DNA of 20,127 nt, taken from the IMG/VR virus record IMGVR_UViG_3300022187_000331, positions 1 through 20,127 of that record; one strand, 5' to 3'. Shown piece after piece: positions 1,273 through 19,477 of this stretch; position 1 is the first letter of the stretch; every line of letters begins with the position of its first letter. The position numbers and the translations under genes are program-made. A model generated the notes under the pieces. The model saw only the letters and a program-made list of their open reading frames with translations, was not told the DNA's origin and did not search any database. Source of the stretch: a virus.

Positions 1273-4200
1273 ATGGCAGTATCAGCAATAGCAGGATTGA
1301 TGACGGCAGGGGGTGCAGTTGCGGCCGCAGGAGGGTTTGCCGCATTTGCCGCAGGTACTTTATTTGGCGGCTCTTTGCTCACTGCTTTTGCCATTGGTGC
1401 TGGCCTTTCTGTTGTATCTCGCGCCTTGATGCCAACCCCTTCACTTGGCGCACAGATGCAGGGAAACTCTGTAACTGTCAGAGAACCTGCTGTATCCCGT
1501 AAAATCATTTATGGTCGCGCTAGAGTTGGCGGTGCTATTGTTTATATAGATTCTACTGGCACTGATAACGAGTATCTCCATTTAGTAATTGCTGTAGCGG
1601 GTCATGCGATTGATGGCTTTGAGCAAGTCTGGTTTAACGATACAAAAGTCTGGGATGGCAGTTTTCAAGGTAACTGGGGGTCTTATGTTCACATAGGCTT
1701 CCATGATGGTACGCAAACAACTGCCGACAGCACTCTAGTATCTGCATCCAGCGGCTGGACTAATGATCATAAATTATTAGACACAGCCTATATCTATGTT
1801 CGACTAAAATACGATACAGATCAATTCGCGCAGGGCTTGCCGAACATCTCTACAGTGGTTAGAGGTAAAAAGGTTTATAACCCTGTCTCAGCGACTACAG
1901 CATGGTCACAGAATCCCGCTCTCTGCGTGTTTGACTACTTAAAAGATACAAAGTATGGCTTGGCAGAGTCGGCCTCTAACGTCAATACAACGGCTCTGAT
2001 AGCGGCTCAAAGTTTATGCGATGAGACTGTTAATTTGTCAGGCGGTGGCAGTCAAAATAGATACGTTCTGGATGGCGTAGTAGACACTGCAAATAGCCGA
2101 AAAGATAACATCGAGGCCATGTTGTCGAGCATGGGTGGTAAGCTGATTTACTCAGGCGGTGAGTATTTTATTGTCGGTGCTGAATACAACACCCCCACGA
2201 TCACAGTGGATGAATCTGTATTAGTTGGTGGTATATCGGTTAAGACCAAGCAAAGCCGCAGAAGCCTCTACAATGGCGTTAAAGGCGTTTACTTAGCAGA
2301 AGAAGAAAACTACACCCTAGCGGATTATCCCTCTATAACTAGCAGTAGCTACTCTACAGAAGATGGCGATCCTATCTATCTAGATATGCCGTTGCCGTTT
2401 ACGACTAATAACGTAAGGGCGCAGAGAATCGCCAAGATTGCCCTATTGCAATCAAGACAACAAACGCAGATAACCATTCCTTGTAATCTGGCCGCACTGA
2501 AGTTTAAGGCTGGCGATAACATCATGGTTACCAACTCGCGTATGGGTTGGACTCAGAAAGTTTTTGAAGTTACTGGCTACCAACTAGACATAACCACTGA
2601 TGGCGCAATTATTGTAAACGTAGATGCGATAGAAACAGCCTCTGCCATATTTGATTGGTCAACATCCGATCAGCAAGACTTTACCACTGGGGGCGAGGTT
2701 GATTTGTATGATGGCTTTACTACTCAGCCGCCTACTAATCTTGCCGCTACATCTACGACAGTAGTCGCATCTGATGGGACTTTATTGCCCTCTCTTAGAT
2801 TGACTTGGACTGATTCAACCGATGTATTTGTCACCCAGTATGAAGTGCAATATCAGCGCGGGTCGGCTCTGGTTGATTACGGAAATATCACAGATGCCTA
2901 CACTACAAATACCGATCATGGCTTAATTACTAATGCGGCATCTATCACGTTGGATTACGGCTCTATTGATGATCCAGTGGCGACTGATGAGCCTAACTAT
3001 AATTCAGTCTTTGTAACGACTAATCAATATGTGATTACTGGTGTTGTCCCATCGGCTAATTACAACATAAGAATCAGGGCAGTAAATAATCTTGGTGTTA
3101 AAAGTAACTTTGTCACCCTGTCAGGATTGGCCGAAGGGGATACTGATCCCTGCGGTATTCCAGATAGCCTAAGTGCGGTTGGTGGCCTGAAAGAAATTAG
3201 CTTGTCGTGGATTATTCCCACTGAGCCTGATTACTCTCATGTTGAAGTATGGGAAAACATCGTAAACAACTCTGCGACTGCAACTAAGATTGCGACTGCC
3301 AGCGGGGATAACTTTGCCCGTACAGGTTTAGGTTATAACGTACTCAGATATTACTGGGTTAAATCGGTCGATTACTCTGGTAATGTTTCTGCGTTTTCAT
3401 CGGTAGCCAGTGCGACTACTTTATTTGTCGATACTGATTCCTTTAGTCAGGCAGTAAATGATTTATTCTCTGAGGCAGGTGCGTATGGTATCGAGCCTGT
3501 TAGTTCACTTCCTGCAACGGGTGACTTTAACGGTCAGATAAAATATAACACTACTCAAAATAAATTATACCGCTGGGATTCTGCAACTTCTGCGTGGACT
3601 GATGACATATTCTCGATTACGTCAGGCAGTGTTGATCTTGCATCATTCGCATCAGGCATTGAACCAATTAGTATTGTTTCTAGCTTGCCTAATCCATCAG
3701 GATATACTGGTGCAAACCTAGTATTTTTAACAACTGATTATAAATTATACCGATACAACGGCACTGCATTTGTCTCTAGTGTTGCGGCTGGTGATATTAC
3801 TGGCACTATCGGTTCGGATGTATTTCCAAATAATTTAAGGCCAGTAGAGATTGTTTCTACACTTCCTACTACGGGCAACTTCCAAGGTCGGCAGGTATTC
3901 CTTACATCTGACAATAAACTATACAGATATAACGGAACGTCATTTATCGCAAGCGTAGCAACTAGCGATCTACAGGGTCAGGTAAGCAGTACGCAGATCA
4001 GCGACAACTCAATATCTACAGCCAAGATACAAGCAGACGCGATCACTGCAAATGAAATATCAACTGGCGCGGTTACTGCTGATGCTATTACTGCTGGTTC
4101 TATTAGTTCGGCCGCTATTGCGGCTGATGCCATTACATCGGATAAGATTGCGGCTAACGCTGTTACAGCGGGTGCTATTCAGGCGGGTGCTATTAGTGCG

Positions 4201-7096: not shown

Positions 7097-7414
7097 ATGG
7101 CAGTAACTTGGACAATCTCAACACTAGAACGCAACACTGACGACGGTGTTGTTGTAGCACACTGGCGTGCTAGCGATAGCGAAGTAGTAGGCACTGGCGA
7201 TGACGCTGTAACTCACTCAGGTAGCTCATACGGCACTTGCGGCTTTACCCCTGACGCAGATGCTGACGGCTACACAGCCTATGCTGACATCACAGAGGCT
7301 CAGGTCATTGAGTGGGTAAAGGCTGACGTTGACGCTGACGCTATTGAGGCAAGCATTGCTTCACAGATTGCAGACAGCAAGGCTCCCGCGATTAGCACTG
7401 GAGTGCCTTGGTAA
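7097..7414 (+). CDS. Small tail-fibre-associated protein (MAVTWTIS-type, DUF7936-like)
   Basis: 105 residues, acidic. It begins MAVTWTISTLERNTDDGVVV and ends in GVPW. Small proteins with this start are common directly downstream of tail fibre genes in marine phages; I associate them with DUF7936, but the assignment is from memory. The middle carries a beta-rich stretch (SSYGTCGFTPDADADGY) and a helical end (EAQVIEWVKADVDADAIEASIASQI). An AGAGGA Shine-Dalgarno lies 7-12 bases before ATG. Its stop overlaps the next start (TAATG at 7412-7416). Position between the fibre and other small structural genes suggests a virion or fibre accessory role; function is unknown. Confidence 0.75.
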   Translation: MAVTWTISTLERNTDDGVVVAHWRASDSEVVGTGDDAVTHSGSSYGTCGFTPDADADGYTAYADITEAQVIEWVKADVDADAIEASIASQIADSKAPAISTGVPW

Positions 7415-7884
7415 TGATTGATCCCGTCACGGCCATCAGCATAGCCACTAACGCCTTTGGTACTGTAAAAAGGATGATTGAGGCTGGCCGAGATGTAGAG
7501 GATACACTTAGCCAAGTTGGTAGATGGTACGGGGCGGTCAGTGACTTAAATGAATGTCAGCGCAGGGCAGAAAATCCACCCCTGTTTAAGAAAATTGTTG
7601 CGTCACAATCTGTTGAGCAGGAGGCGATGCAGATATATGCTCACCAGAAAAAAATTCAGGCGCAAGAAAAGGAGCTACGCACTTTGCTTATGTATGCCTA
7701 CGGGCCTAGTGGCTATACTGAGCTAACTGAATTGCGGAGAAAAATAAGAGAGAAAAGAGAGCAAACAATTTACGCGCAGGAAAGAAAGCGCAAAGCGTTA
7801 TTCTGGAATAGCATTCAAATATCAGGAATCGCAGTTTTAGGCTATGCAATATATCTGATTATTGATTTCTTGATGAGGCAGTAA
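7414..7884 (+). CDS. Conserved phage protein with coiled coil and C-terminal membrane segment
   Basis: 156 residues from the ATG at 7414, chosen because it overlaps the previous stop as TAATG like its neighbours; a TTG two codons upstream is less likely. The N-terminus (MIDPVTAISIATNAFGTVKRMIEAG) is helical. The middle is a charged, Gln/Glu/Lys/Arg-rich helical stretch (about 60-125) that could form a coiled coil. The C-terminus is one hydrophobic membrane segment (about 130-153) followed by a short basic tail. Proteins of this build sit between structural and lysis genes in several marine phages. A role at the membrane or in the virion is inferred; no enzyme motif is present. Confidence 0.7.
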   Translation: MIDPVTAISIATNAFGTVKRMIEAGRDVEDTLSQVGRWYGAVSDLNECQRRAENPPLFKKIVASQSVEQEAMQIYAHQKKIQAQEKELRTLLMYAYGPSGYTELTELRRKIREKREQTIYAQERKRKALFWNSIQISGIAVLGYAIYLIIDFLMRQ

Positions 7885-17527: not shown

Positions 17528-17543
17528 GCCCCCTACGGGGGGC
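17528..17543 (+). other. Stop-linked GC hairpin after the acidic gene
   Basis: GCCCCC-TACG-GGGGGC, a 6-bp stem capped by a UNCG-type tetraloop, beginning 7 bases after the stop. The first 16 bases from the stop (17518-17533) are identical to 10851-10866. No U-run follows. Confidence 0.75.
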
Positions 17544-17563
17544 AATCAATCAAGGGGAATAAT

Positions 17564-17741: not shown

Positions 17742-17763
17742 GCCCCCTTCGGGGGGCTTTTTT
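17742..17763 (+). terminator. Intrinsic terminator
   Basis: GCCCCC-UUCG-GGGGGC followed directly by TTTTTT on the + strand, 13 bases after the stop of the small membrane protein. This is the clearest + strand terminator in the window. Confidence 0.92.
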
Positions 17764-18240: not shown

Positions 18241-18395
18241 ATGCAGTTAATGAGTGGAAGCGTTTAAGAGAGTTATATCCAGCAATAGAAAAAAGCGAGG
18301 CAAATGATGAACCAGATAGAAAAAGCAATGAAAGAAGCCCACAGATTCGCAGACAAGGCGATAAAAGACGCCAACAAAAGCGACAGAATGGGTAA
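18228..18395 (+). CDS. Hypothetical small basic protein (overlaps next gene)
   Basis: 55 residues from ATG 18228, with AGAGAGGG 7 bases upstream. It starts MGTLNAVNEWKRLRELYPAI and becomes Arg/Gln/Lys-rich (IRRQGDKRRQQKRQNG). The last 92 bases overlap the next gene in another frame, so the C-terminal half may be constrained by that gene. The good Shine-Dalgarno supports translation. Alternatives: a short leader frame coupling translation of the next gene, or a non-functional frame. Confidence 0.5.
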   Translation: MGTLNAVNEWKRLRELYPAIEKSEANDEPDRKSNERSPQIRRQGDKRRQQKRQNG

Positions 18396-18501
18396 GATCA
18401 AAGAATGGCTAATGACTGATATAGTCGTAAAGCGTATGTATTTAGCGGTGATATACTTTAGTTTATTTGGGTTTATCGCTTTGGAGATATTGATTTACTA
18501 G
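18304..18501 (+). CDS. Small membrane protein with C-terminal anchor
   Basis: 65 residues from ATG 18304 (a second ATG follows at once) with GAGG 4-7 bases upstream. The first ~40 residues are a charged helix (QIEKAMKEAHRFADKAIKDA), and residues ~45-65 form one membrane segment (MYLAVIYFSLFGFIALEILI). A soluble helix with a C-terminal anchor is a build seen in phage lysis and exclusion proteins, but no family is recognised. It is the last gene before the structured intergenic region ahead of the terminase genes. Confidence 0.65.
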   Translation: MMNQIEKAMKEAHRFADKAIKDANKSDRMGKIKEWLMTDIVVKRMYLAVIYFSLFGFIALEILIY

Positions 18502-18502
18502 C

Positions 18503-18621
18503 GGTCAGGGGTTCATAACCCTTCCTGCCAGAGTGATGCACTGGTGACCACTACGCATCAGGCCAAGGTTTCCCTTAACCTTTTGACCCAGACTAGCCCA
18601 CTGGGGAGCCGAAACGGGCTA
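18503..18621 (+). ncRNA. Candidate structured RNA or packaging-site element upstream of terminase
   Basis: Four consecutive elements with 4-base linkers fill this stretch. A: 18503-18529, GG..CAGG GGTT / AACC..CCTG CC. B: 18534-18560, TGATGC/GCATCA enclosing TGG/CCA. C: 18565-18582, AAGGTT/AACCTT. D: 18587-18621, an H-type pseudoknot with stem 1 CCCAG/CTGGG (587-591, 601-605) and stem 2 TAGCCC/GGGCTA (594-599, 616-621), loops 2, 1 and 10 bases. All named pairs are Watson-Crick. It may be an RNA, a leader, or a DNA-level cos/pac site given the terminase genes downstream. No known RNA class was recognised. Confidence 0.5.
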
Positions 18622-18678
18622 TTAATATACATTAGAATATATACCAGAAAAGGTATTAATCTTATTAAAAACAAGCAT

Positions 18679-18707
18679 TTCTCAGCATAACCAAAAGTCT
18701 TTATAAT
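18679..18707 (+). promoter_or_regulatory. Sigma70-type promoter before a 21-codon frame
   Basis: TTCTCA (18679-18684, 4 of 6), 17-base spacer, TATAAT (18702-18707, perfect). Transcription would start near 18714, 24 bases before the GTG of the small peptide and upstream of the terminase genes. Confidence 0.65.
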
Positions 18708-18737
18708 CTCGCCTCATTCACGCAACCAGAGGCAACA

Positions 18738-18803
18738 GTGCTTTACATTATCCTATTTACCCTTATCTCCCTTACCGCAGTAGCCGCAGACGATCTAAGA
18801 TAA
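18738..18803 (+). CDS. Possible 21-residue hydrophobic peptide
   Basis: GTG start, preceded by AGAGG 6-10 bases upstream and a good promoter at 18679. The peptide (M)LYIILFTLISLTAVAADDLR is one membrane-length hydrophobic stretch with an AVAA-D signal-like end. It could be a leader peptide, a tiny membrane peptide or a toxin-like small protein, or an accidental frame. Length alone cannot separate these. Confidence 0.35.
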   Translation: MLYIILFTLISLTAVAADDLR

Positions 18804-18833
18804 TTTACATAATCGTTTAAAACCGTATACAAT
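18804..18833 (+). promoter_or_regulatory. Probable late promoter of the packaging operon
   Basis: TTTACA (18804-18809, 5 of 6) followed after 16 bases by TATACA (18826-18831) or after 18 bases by TACAAT (18828-18833). It lies about 30 bases upstream of the ATG at 18864. Confidence 0.6.
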
Positions 18834-18863: not shown

Positions 18864-19109
18864 ATGGAATCAATCAAAGTATCAAATCGGATAGATGAAT
18901 GCCTATTTTTTGAGCTAGAAGATCATCTGGCTCAGTTCGACGCAATCATGGACTCACTTATAGAAACAGACGTACAACGCCACACAATACGCGAGGCTTT
19001 AGCGGATTGGTCGCAGTCTGTAGATGAGGCTGTGGAAGATATTATCGAGCAACAAAAGCCAGAAGAGCCTACACTTAAAGCAGATGAACTATTTGGGACA
19101 GAAGTATGA
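18864..19109 (+). CDS. Hypothetical acidic protein ahead of TerS
   Basis: 81 residues beginning MESIKVSNRIDECLFFELED, with a helical centre (FDAIMDSLIETDVQRHTIRE) and an acidic end (DEAVEDIIEQQKPEEPTLKA). No known domain. It begins the packaging operon and its stop overlaps the terS start (ATGA at 19106-19109). Small helical proteins before terS are common in such operons; a packaging accessory role is inferred only from position. Confidence 0.7.
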   Translation: MESIKVSNRIDECLFFELEDHLAQFDAIMDSLIETDVQRHTIREALADWSQSVDEAVEDIIEQQKPEEPTLKADELFGTEV

Positions 19110-19477
19110 CCGCTGGCAGACCAAAGTGGATACCTGATGAGCTAGCCTGTCGTAAGGCGCGAGAAATGGCCTCTAGGGGGCTTACAGTTAAGCAGATAGC
19201 CGATTGCTTGGGTGTGTCCGATGCAACCATATATGAGCGACAGAAAGAATATCCAGAGTTTCTTGAGGCTATAAAAAGGGGTCGCAGTGAAGGCATCAAT
19301 CAGGTAACGAATAAACTATTCGAGAAGGCGGTTGATGGTGACAATACCTGCATGATCTTTTATCTCAAGACTAGGGATAGGGAATCATGGGGCGATCAAT
19401 ATGTTGAACCAGTAAAAGAGATTCCACCAATACAAATCCTTGTGGATAAAGATGCAATTAACAAAGCCGCAGAGTGA
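19106..19477 (+). CDS. terS: Terminase small subunit
   Basis: 123 residues. The N-terminal helix-turn-helix is clear: GRPKWIPDELACRKAREMAS, then GLTVKQIADCLGVSDATIYE (about 25-44), RQKEYPEFLEAIKRGRSEG. The later helical part (NKLFEKAVDGDNTCMIFYLK, DRESWGDQY) fits small terminase subunits of this type, which bind the packaging site as oligomers. It overlaps the preceding gene as ATGA and the large-subunit gene by 26 bases. Its DNA target is often within or just upstream of terS, which is relevant to 18503-18621. Confidence 0.85.
   Translation: MTAGRPKWIPDELACRKAREMASRGLTVKQIADCLGVSDATIYERQKEYPEFLEAIKRGRSEGINQVTNKLFEKAVDGDNTCMIFYLKTRDRESWGDQYVEPVKEIPPIQILVDKDAINKAAE

Follow-up and report, generated by a model that had tools for sequence, protein, structure and literature searches.

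Tandem copies of a conserved pseudoknotted RNA fold behind a small-ORF stop codon in uncultured marine phages

Described RNAs of related topology

In flaviviruses, class 1 xrRNAs occur as tandem copies downstream of the coding sequence, where they halt a 5'-3' exonuclease and so leave a stable fragment. In plant viruses (dianthovirus and luteovirus), xrRNAs are built on a coaxial stem whose apical loop pairs downstream. Glutamine riboswitches (glnA and Downstream-peptide, for which Rfam holds models) have the same strand order as the phage RNA described here, exist with P2 present or absent, form tandem copies and occur in marine sequences. At toxI loci, repeats are followed by a terminator, and phages encode pseudo-ToxI. 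The strands of class 1 xrRNAs follow the order P1, P2 hairpin, P3 with its loop, P1' and the partner of the loop, with 0-1 nt between P2 and P3 (PMC7527734), and one flaviviral xrRNA also halts the bacterial RNase J1 (PMC5760640). The toxI antitoxin consists of multiple RNA repeats (PMC8860590).

In this study we analysed a window of 20,127 bases, the IMG/VR record IMGVR_UViG_3300022187_000331, from an uncultured marine phage. Comparative evidence shows that the plus strand of positions 18503-18621 encodes a single compact RNA fold twice in tandem (Table 1). Each unit is a three-way junction of stems A, H and B, in which the loop of B pairs downstream of A as stem C, thereby closing an H-type pseudoknot across the junction.

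Like flaviviral class 1 xrRNAs (1a and 1b), the phage unit is a three-way junction P1/P2/P3, with covarying A, H and B, whose P3 loop pairs just 3' of P1 (Pk2, our stem C); as in 1b, P1 is 3-4 bp, the units are often in tandem and the setting is a viral 3'UTR. It differs in its loop layout (2-6-1), 6-bp pseudoknot and 5-nt linker, in a P2-P3 linker of about 4 nt (TTGA, 18583-18586) instead of 0-1, and in lacking sequence similarity to these RNAs and belonging to a DNA phage, in which its exonuclease resistance is hypothetical. In a search for Pk1, where the 5' end pairs with the junction and a ring closes round it, no further covarying pair with the 5' flank rose above background; the base 5' of stem A is an invariant A. 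Distant units that lack the H arm (G016-type, L327, L332) come close to the plant-virus xrRNAs, whereas most phage units have a third arm. Unlike glutamine riboswitches, the phage unit carries no conserved glutamine-aptamer sequence and sits after a stop codon, and cmscan returned no glutamine riboswitch at E<=10 for the element or ten relatives. Like the type III antitoxin RNAs ToxI and CptI, it forms tandem pseudoknots that in some cases precede a terminator, but its copies are diverged, the unit is longer and has the extra arm H, and neither a toxin gene nor an Rfam match accompanies it.

Fold, covariation and strand

Relatives were collected through their proteins, TerL and TerS each giving 80 loci on viral contigs, and the set was widened with DNA patterns to 73 distinct unit-like sequences from 317 loci. 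All are uncultured contigs of shared ancestry, so the counts given below are of sequences and not of independent events. Two covariance models were built, R1 from unit 2 only and R2 from unit 1s only. The pattern scans force one change in stem C, and the claim for this stem is based on the protein-selected loci and on a pattern in which the middle of C was left free.

By blastn, positions 18493-18624 form a block of ~80-90% identity in many relatives, with diverging flanks. The unit is kept in considerably more than a hundred contigs of related viruses. R1 detected it in 50 of the 51 TerS-selected loci, in each case on the same strand as the terminase genes; the sole locus without it has the most distant TerS (49% identity). 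Among 26 long contigs, R1 found one site per contig, with one or two units each, except for one contig with two sites. Some relatives have unit 2 alone. One pattern match (L260) was discarded as fortuitous (R1 E 0.3). The closest proteins of the window phage are found in alphaproteobacterial, enterobacterial and other phages, which does not settle the host, and GTDB genomes searched with the RNA pattern and a TerL profile gave no host match.

Table 1. Features of the element and its surroundings (positions in the window)
Feature	Position	Strand	Evidence or remark
65-aa upstream ORF with a hydrophobic segment at its C-terminus	18304-18501	+	sequence
Stop codon TAG of the 65-aa ORF	18499-18501	+	one base before unit 1
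Unit 1	18503-18560	+	covariation, R1/R2 models, descriptor scan
Stem A1	18503-18506/18546-18549	+	unit 1
Hairpin H1	18507-18513/18517-18523	+	unit 1
Stem B1	18527-18531/18541-18545	+	unit 1
Pseudoknot stem C1	18534-18539/18555-18560	+	unit 1
A18560	18560	+	last base of C1, directly 5' of stem A2; invariant
Unit 2, most conserved copy	18561-18621	+	covariation (A1, A4), G-U/A-C counts, R1 model
Stem A2	18561-18563/18608-18610, plus likely 18564-18606	+	unit 2
Hairpin H2	18565-18569/18578-18582	+	unit 2
Stem B2	18587-18591/18601-18605	+	unit 2
Pseudoknot stem C2	18594-18599/18616-18621	+	unit 2
Promoter-like region before the next operon, TTCTCA-17-TATAAT at 18679-18707	18622-18737	+	recurs in relatives
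21-codon ORF, GTG start, small hydrophobic peptide ending AVAADDLR	18738-18803	+	sequence
Second promoter-like site, TTTACA-18-TACAAT	18804-18833	+	recurs in relatives
81-aa ORF	18864-19109	+	behind the second promoter-like site
TerS (terminase small subunit)	19106-19477	+	phrog_309, E 2e-27; outside the RNA element

An earlier note, made from the sequence alone, had read these 119 bases as three hairpins and a pseudoknot paired beyond chance. Nested folding energy did not bear out the latter point, with an MFE of -38.6 kcal/mol against -36.2 +/- 3.8 for shuffled sequences (z -0.62) and 45 of 200 shuffles equally good, by a tool that does not score pseudoknots; the pairing claim therefore needed a comparative test. 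Compensatory change in homologues proved to be well above chance in three alignments. Alignment A4 was made from protein-selected loci and fitted to three of the stems (A, H and B), with C left unfitted. In it, 97.7% of the unit 2 cells pair, 12 of the 19 pairs show double-sided changes, and 97 cells are double-changed against 26.1 after shuffling (0/500), while sliding the partner by one base lowers pairing to 39-59%. A plain MAFFT alignment with no structure fitted (A1) gave 95.2% paired cells for unit 2, with 63 double-changed cells against 20.1 (0/500). For unit 1 (alignment A2, 20 sequences) the corresponding figures are 89.7% and 36 against 13.8 (0/500). Stem C, seen in A4 at loci not chosen by their RNA sequence, has 98.1% of its cells paired and double changes in 3 of its 6 pairs. 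Its variants include TAGCCC/GGGCTA, TAGTCC/GGACTA, TGGTTC/GAACCA, TGGCTC/GAGCCA and TGGTAC/GTACCA, and those of stem A are GGC/GCC, GAC/GTC, GAT/ATC, TGC/GCA and CGC/GCG, with GTAGC/GCTAC in distant loci.

The structure announced by the earlier note is thus real, but its fold was partly misdrawn, since the region comprises two tandem junction units. All four complementary stretches that it listed, 4 bases apart, are present. Its H-type pseudoknot at 18587-18621 (5 bp and 6 bp; loops of 2, 1 and 10) and its hairpin at 18565-18582 are conserved, as seen from covariation. In the element drawn at 18534-18560 the outer stem TGATGC/GCATCA holds, and in that at 18503-18529 the inner stem does, but the remaining stem of each fails in relatives. 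Two of the supposed 4-base spacers turn out to be paired, as GGCC at 18561-18564 is the 5' strand of A2 and 18530-18531 belong to B1. In the discarded stems of unit 1 (GGT/GCC and TGGT/ACTA), 64.3% of cells pair, compared with 66.1% in the shuffled control, and 1 pair has a double change where 3.3 are expected; these stems show no covariation.

The two units, of 58-61 nt, are diverged in sequence. In the window, unit 1 is found by R2 at E 2e-18 and by R1 at E 0.002, and unit 2 by R1 at E 1e-21. Across relatives, E values are mostly 1e-6 to 1e-7 for R2 on unit 2s, and range from 3e-7 to 2e-3 for R1 on unit 1s. Because each model recognises the other copy, both units can be regarded as copies of one fold, and the element would most simply be a tandem duplication.

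The paired columns of A4 contain 35 G-U cells and a single A-C cell, which indicates that the element acts as RNA in the plus direction; the opposite strand is disfavoured, as the G-U cells would become C-A mismatches there. A previous G-U tally, biased by its scoring, was set aside. In all 36 distinct rows of A4 six bases are invariant, A18560, A18586, A18600, G18606, A18614 and C18615, of which A18586, A18600, A18614 and C18615 are unpaired and G18606 likely pairs with C18564. Invariant unpaired positions, including the A flanking the 5' side, are what a tertiary core would predict. A candidate base triple at columns 9/35/59 was rejected, as it fails in other relatives (L209).

The suggestion of a phage structured RNA outside known families is backed by the covariation, the strand asymmetry and the Rfam scans. 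Rfam 15 gave no family at gathering threshold for the whole window, a single chance snoRNA match at E<=10 for the element, and no family at gathering score for ten diverse relatives. No tRNA or tmRNA was detected by a dedicated scan. The unit DNA had no match in the collection of isolated phages searched, R1 had none in the complete pelagiphages HTVC202P and HTVC112P and the Roseobacter phage CRP-406, and the RNA pattern found no unit in GTDB genomes. No paper on such an RNA was found in the open literature, subscription journals and preprints lying outside the scope of that search. The family therefore appears to be new, with known parallels to the topology of its fold.

Genomic setting

At the loci examined, the RNA is located in a 3'UTR or between cistrons, immediately after a small-ORF stop codon, the ORF usually being one for a membrane protein. 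Around the first parsed unit, 76 of 99 contexts have the stop codon of an ORF 40 aa or longer at -17 to +11; of the shifted control positions, 43 of 484 do. Reading the sequences showed that an unparsed unit 1 intervenes in most contexts outside that range. In 35 contexts, stem A begins with the last base of the stop codon. Of the 95 upstream ORFs of relatives, 94 have a stretch of 19 residues that is strongly hydrophobic; the upstream ORFs are nearly always small, with a single hydrophobic segment, and are of at least two kinds that look unrelated. In the main group the constant neighbour is the upstream stop codon and not the terminase, while in G016-type phages the unit lies some tens of bases from the stop.

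Downstream, the ORF of the AVAADDLR peptide, which lies behind the RNA and before the 81-aa ORF, recurs in relatives. Since a promoter scan of the window gave fewer promoter-like sites than shuffled sequence, the support for the two sites of Table 1 comes down to their recurrence in relatives. Several lineages have, behind unit 2 and before the promoter-like region, a hairpin and then a good intrinsic terminator, a stretch that the window lacks; such terminators occur in about 20 loci, with the T run beginning 42-78 nt downstream of the unit. At five loci (L256, L219, L262, L181 and L251) the stem of this hairpin changes wholesale (AAGGCTCG/CGAGCCTT, AAGACTCG/CGAGTCTT, GAGAGTG/CACTCTC, GGGGTG/CACCCC and GATGGTG/CACCATC), with the loop keeping CGTT and the terminator following. 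The CGTT-loop hairpin is possibly a second conserved RNA element. In the window itself, two similar GC hairpins (GCCCCCTTCGGGGGGC type) lie at 17528-17545 and 17742-17763; the latter is a good intrinsic terminator within the presumed early operon, which would thus need read-through or antitermination.

The spacing between the unit and TerS is at least 0.45 kb, often 0.45-0.6 kb, and reaches about 4.5 kb. The unit is retained where TerS is a relative of 31-41% identity or lies 2-4.5 kb away. At L261, L256, L183, L168 and others, TerS has been swapped for a relative of 32-41% identity or shifted about 2-4.5 kb by inserted genes, with TerL still ~80% identical. The unit also occurs without an adjoining terminase, at L194, where it precedes an ORF resembling 7408-7884 of the window, close to tail genes, and at L327. 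At two further loci (L176 and L180), another ORF comes directly after the unit, and only a few bases separate the unit's end from a Shine-Dalgarno-like sequence.

The G016/L327 phage type and its relatives L330 and L332 have diverged units between other genes, some without arm H. These units (L327:3093-3145 and 3311-3389, from G016; L330:1866-1914; L332:2252-2304) lie before a MoxR-like ATPase gene, and each is followed by a long hairpin (GAAGTATGTA...TACATACTTC; GAGGTATGTA...CTACATACCTC) and a CAC[TC]A[AG]TTT motif. Unit, hairpin and motif together look like a larger repeated noncoding RNA.

Possible functions

The reading that we place first, with a probability of roughly one in three, is that the unit may be a cis-acting mechanical roadblock to 5'-3' RNA decay, comparable to a flaviviral xrRNA. 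It is proposed from topology, tandem layout and position, and is ranked first because the strand order is that of class 1 xrRNAs and because one xrRNA stops RNase J1, so that such a mechanism could also work in bacterial cells. With the upstream ORF cleared of ribosomes, the pseudoknotted junction would halt a 5'-3' exoribonuclease of the RNase J type, and RNA from the unit onward would persist as a stable fragment, either a short noncoding RNA where a terminator is present or else a protected downstream message; the second copy would serve as a backup, as in flaviviral 3'UTRs. The roadblock reading is consistent with the covariation at loci selected by terminase proteins and in unit 1, the cross-detecting units, the plus strand, the stop-codon placement, the downstream terminators, the invariant unpaired positions with their 5' flanking A, and the topology (P1 of 3-5 bp, P2, P3 and a pseudoknot from L3 to the 3' side), which is that of class 1 xrRNAs (PMC7527734). 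Against it, no 5'-end-to-junction pairing (Pk1) rose above background, the H-B linker is 4 nt instead of 0-1, and the tight fit to the stop codon may merely mirror a compact genome. Moreover, the glutamine riboswitch uses the same topology, which on its own therefore leaves the function unfixed.

That riboswitch topology, the tandem pseudoknotted aptamer-like units, the invariant unpaired bases, the hairpin and terminator that follow in several relatives and the Shine-Dalgarno-like sequences at L176 and L180 would all suit tandem aptamers sensing a ligand or protein and controlling termination or read-through into the next operon. Most loci, including the window, have no terminator, however, separate promoters seem to serve the next operon, the distance to the downstream gene varies with the upstream stop codon fixed, and no Rfam riboswitch was matched even at E 10, so that we hold such a regulator to be rather unlikely. 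A regulatory leader, as the earlier note had proposed, might still apply, but the constant neighbour is the upstream stop codon and not a downstream start. Tandem pseudoknots with an occasional intrinsic terminator, as at toxI loci, could also denote an RNA acting in trans or binding protein, whether a decoy or sponge, such as a type III antitoxin mimic directed at a host RNase toxin, or the site of a phage protein. This seems unlikely, as toxI repeats are near identical and the copies here are not, the unit, at 58-61 nt, exceeds theirs in length, the neighbouring genes include no toxin family and no Rfam antitoxin matched. The position directly behind the stop codon, like that of REP elements, would suit a 3' stabiliser shielding the upstream message from 3'-5' exonucleases, yet that task would not require so elaborate a pseudoknot, with its invariant unpaired positions, or a second copy, and we judge it quite improbable.

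An RNA that is small, pseudoknotted and strongly covarying, and in which some unpaired bases are invariant, might be a self-cleaving ribozyme, but the strand order is unlike that of the HDV-like, pistol and twister folds, no Rfam model matched, and a fixed place behind a stop codon would be atypical, which makes this very unlikely. The frequent location 0.45-0.6 kb before terS would suit a DNA-level cos/pac site recognised by TerS or a packaging RNA, both of which the earlier note had considered. As the unit stays after replacement of TerS, or with TerS kilobases away, and occurs off the terminase, a packaging site is unlikely in the extreme; tolerance of G-U but not A-C and the pseudoknot and junction geometry are of RNA type, and nothing was found in favour of a packaging RNA. 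Least probable of all is a stimulator of stop-codon read-through or frameshifting, for which a pseudoknot immediately behind the stop codon would speak: no frame is conserved past the stop, H has indels of any length and early stops appear in relatives, and no recurring slippery heptamer was seen by eye.

Thus our work brings strong support for a family of structured RNAs in marine phages, carried by almost all phages of the terminase group concerned. Should the RNA not act as a decay roadblock, it would still represent a new aptamer-like or protein-binding RNA. As a wider and more tentative suggestion, DNA phages might carry xrRNAs of their own, with the flaviviral strand order but independently arisen and placed in tandem behind a stop codon, that halt 5'-3' decay by the host and leave stable phage RNA. 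If the unit does stop RNA decay, a strategy of eukaryotic RNA viruses would extend to bacteriophages.
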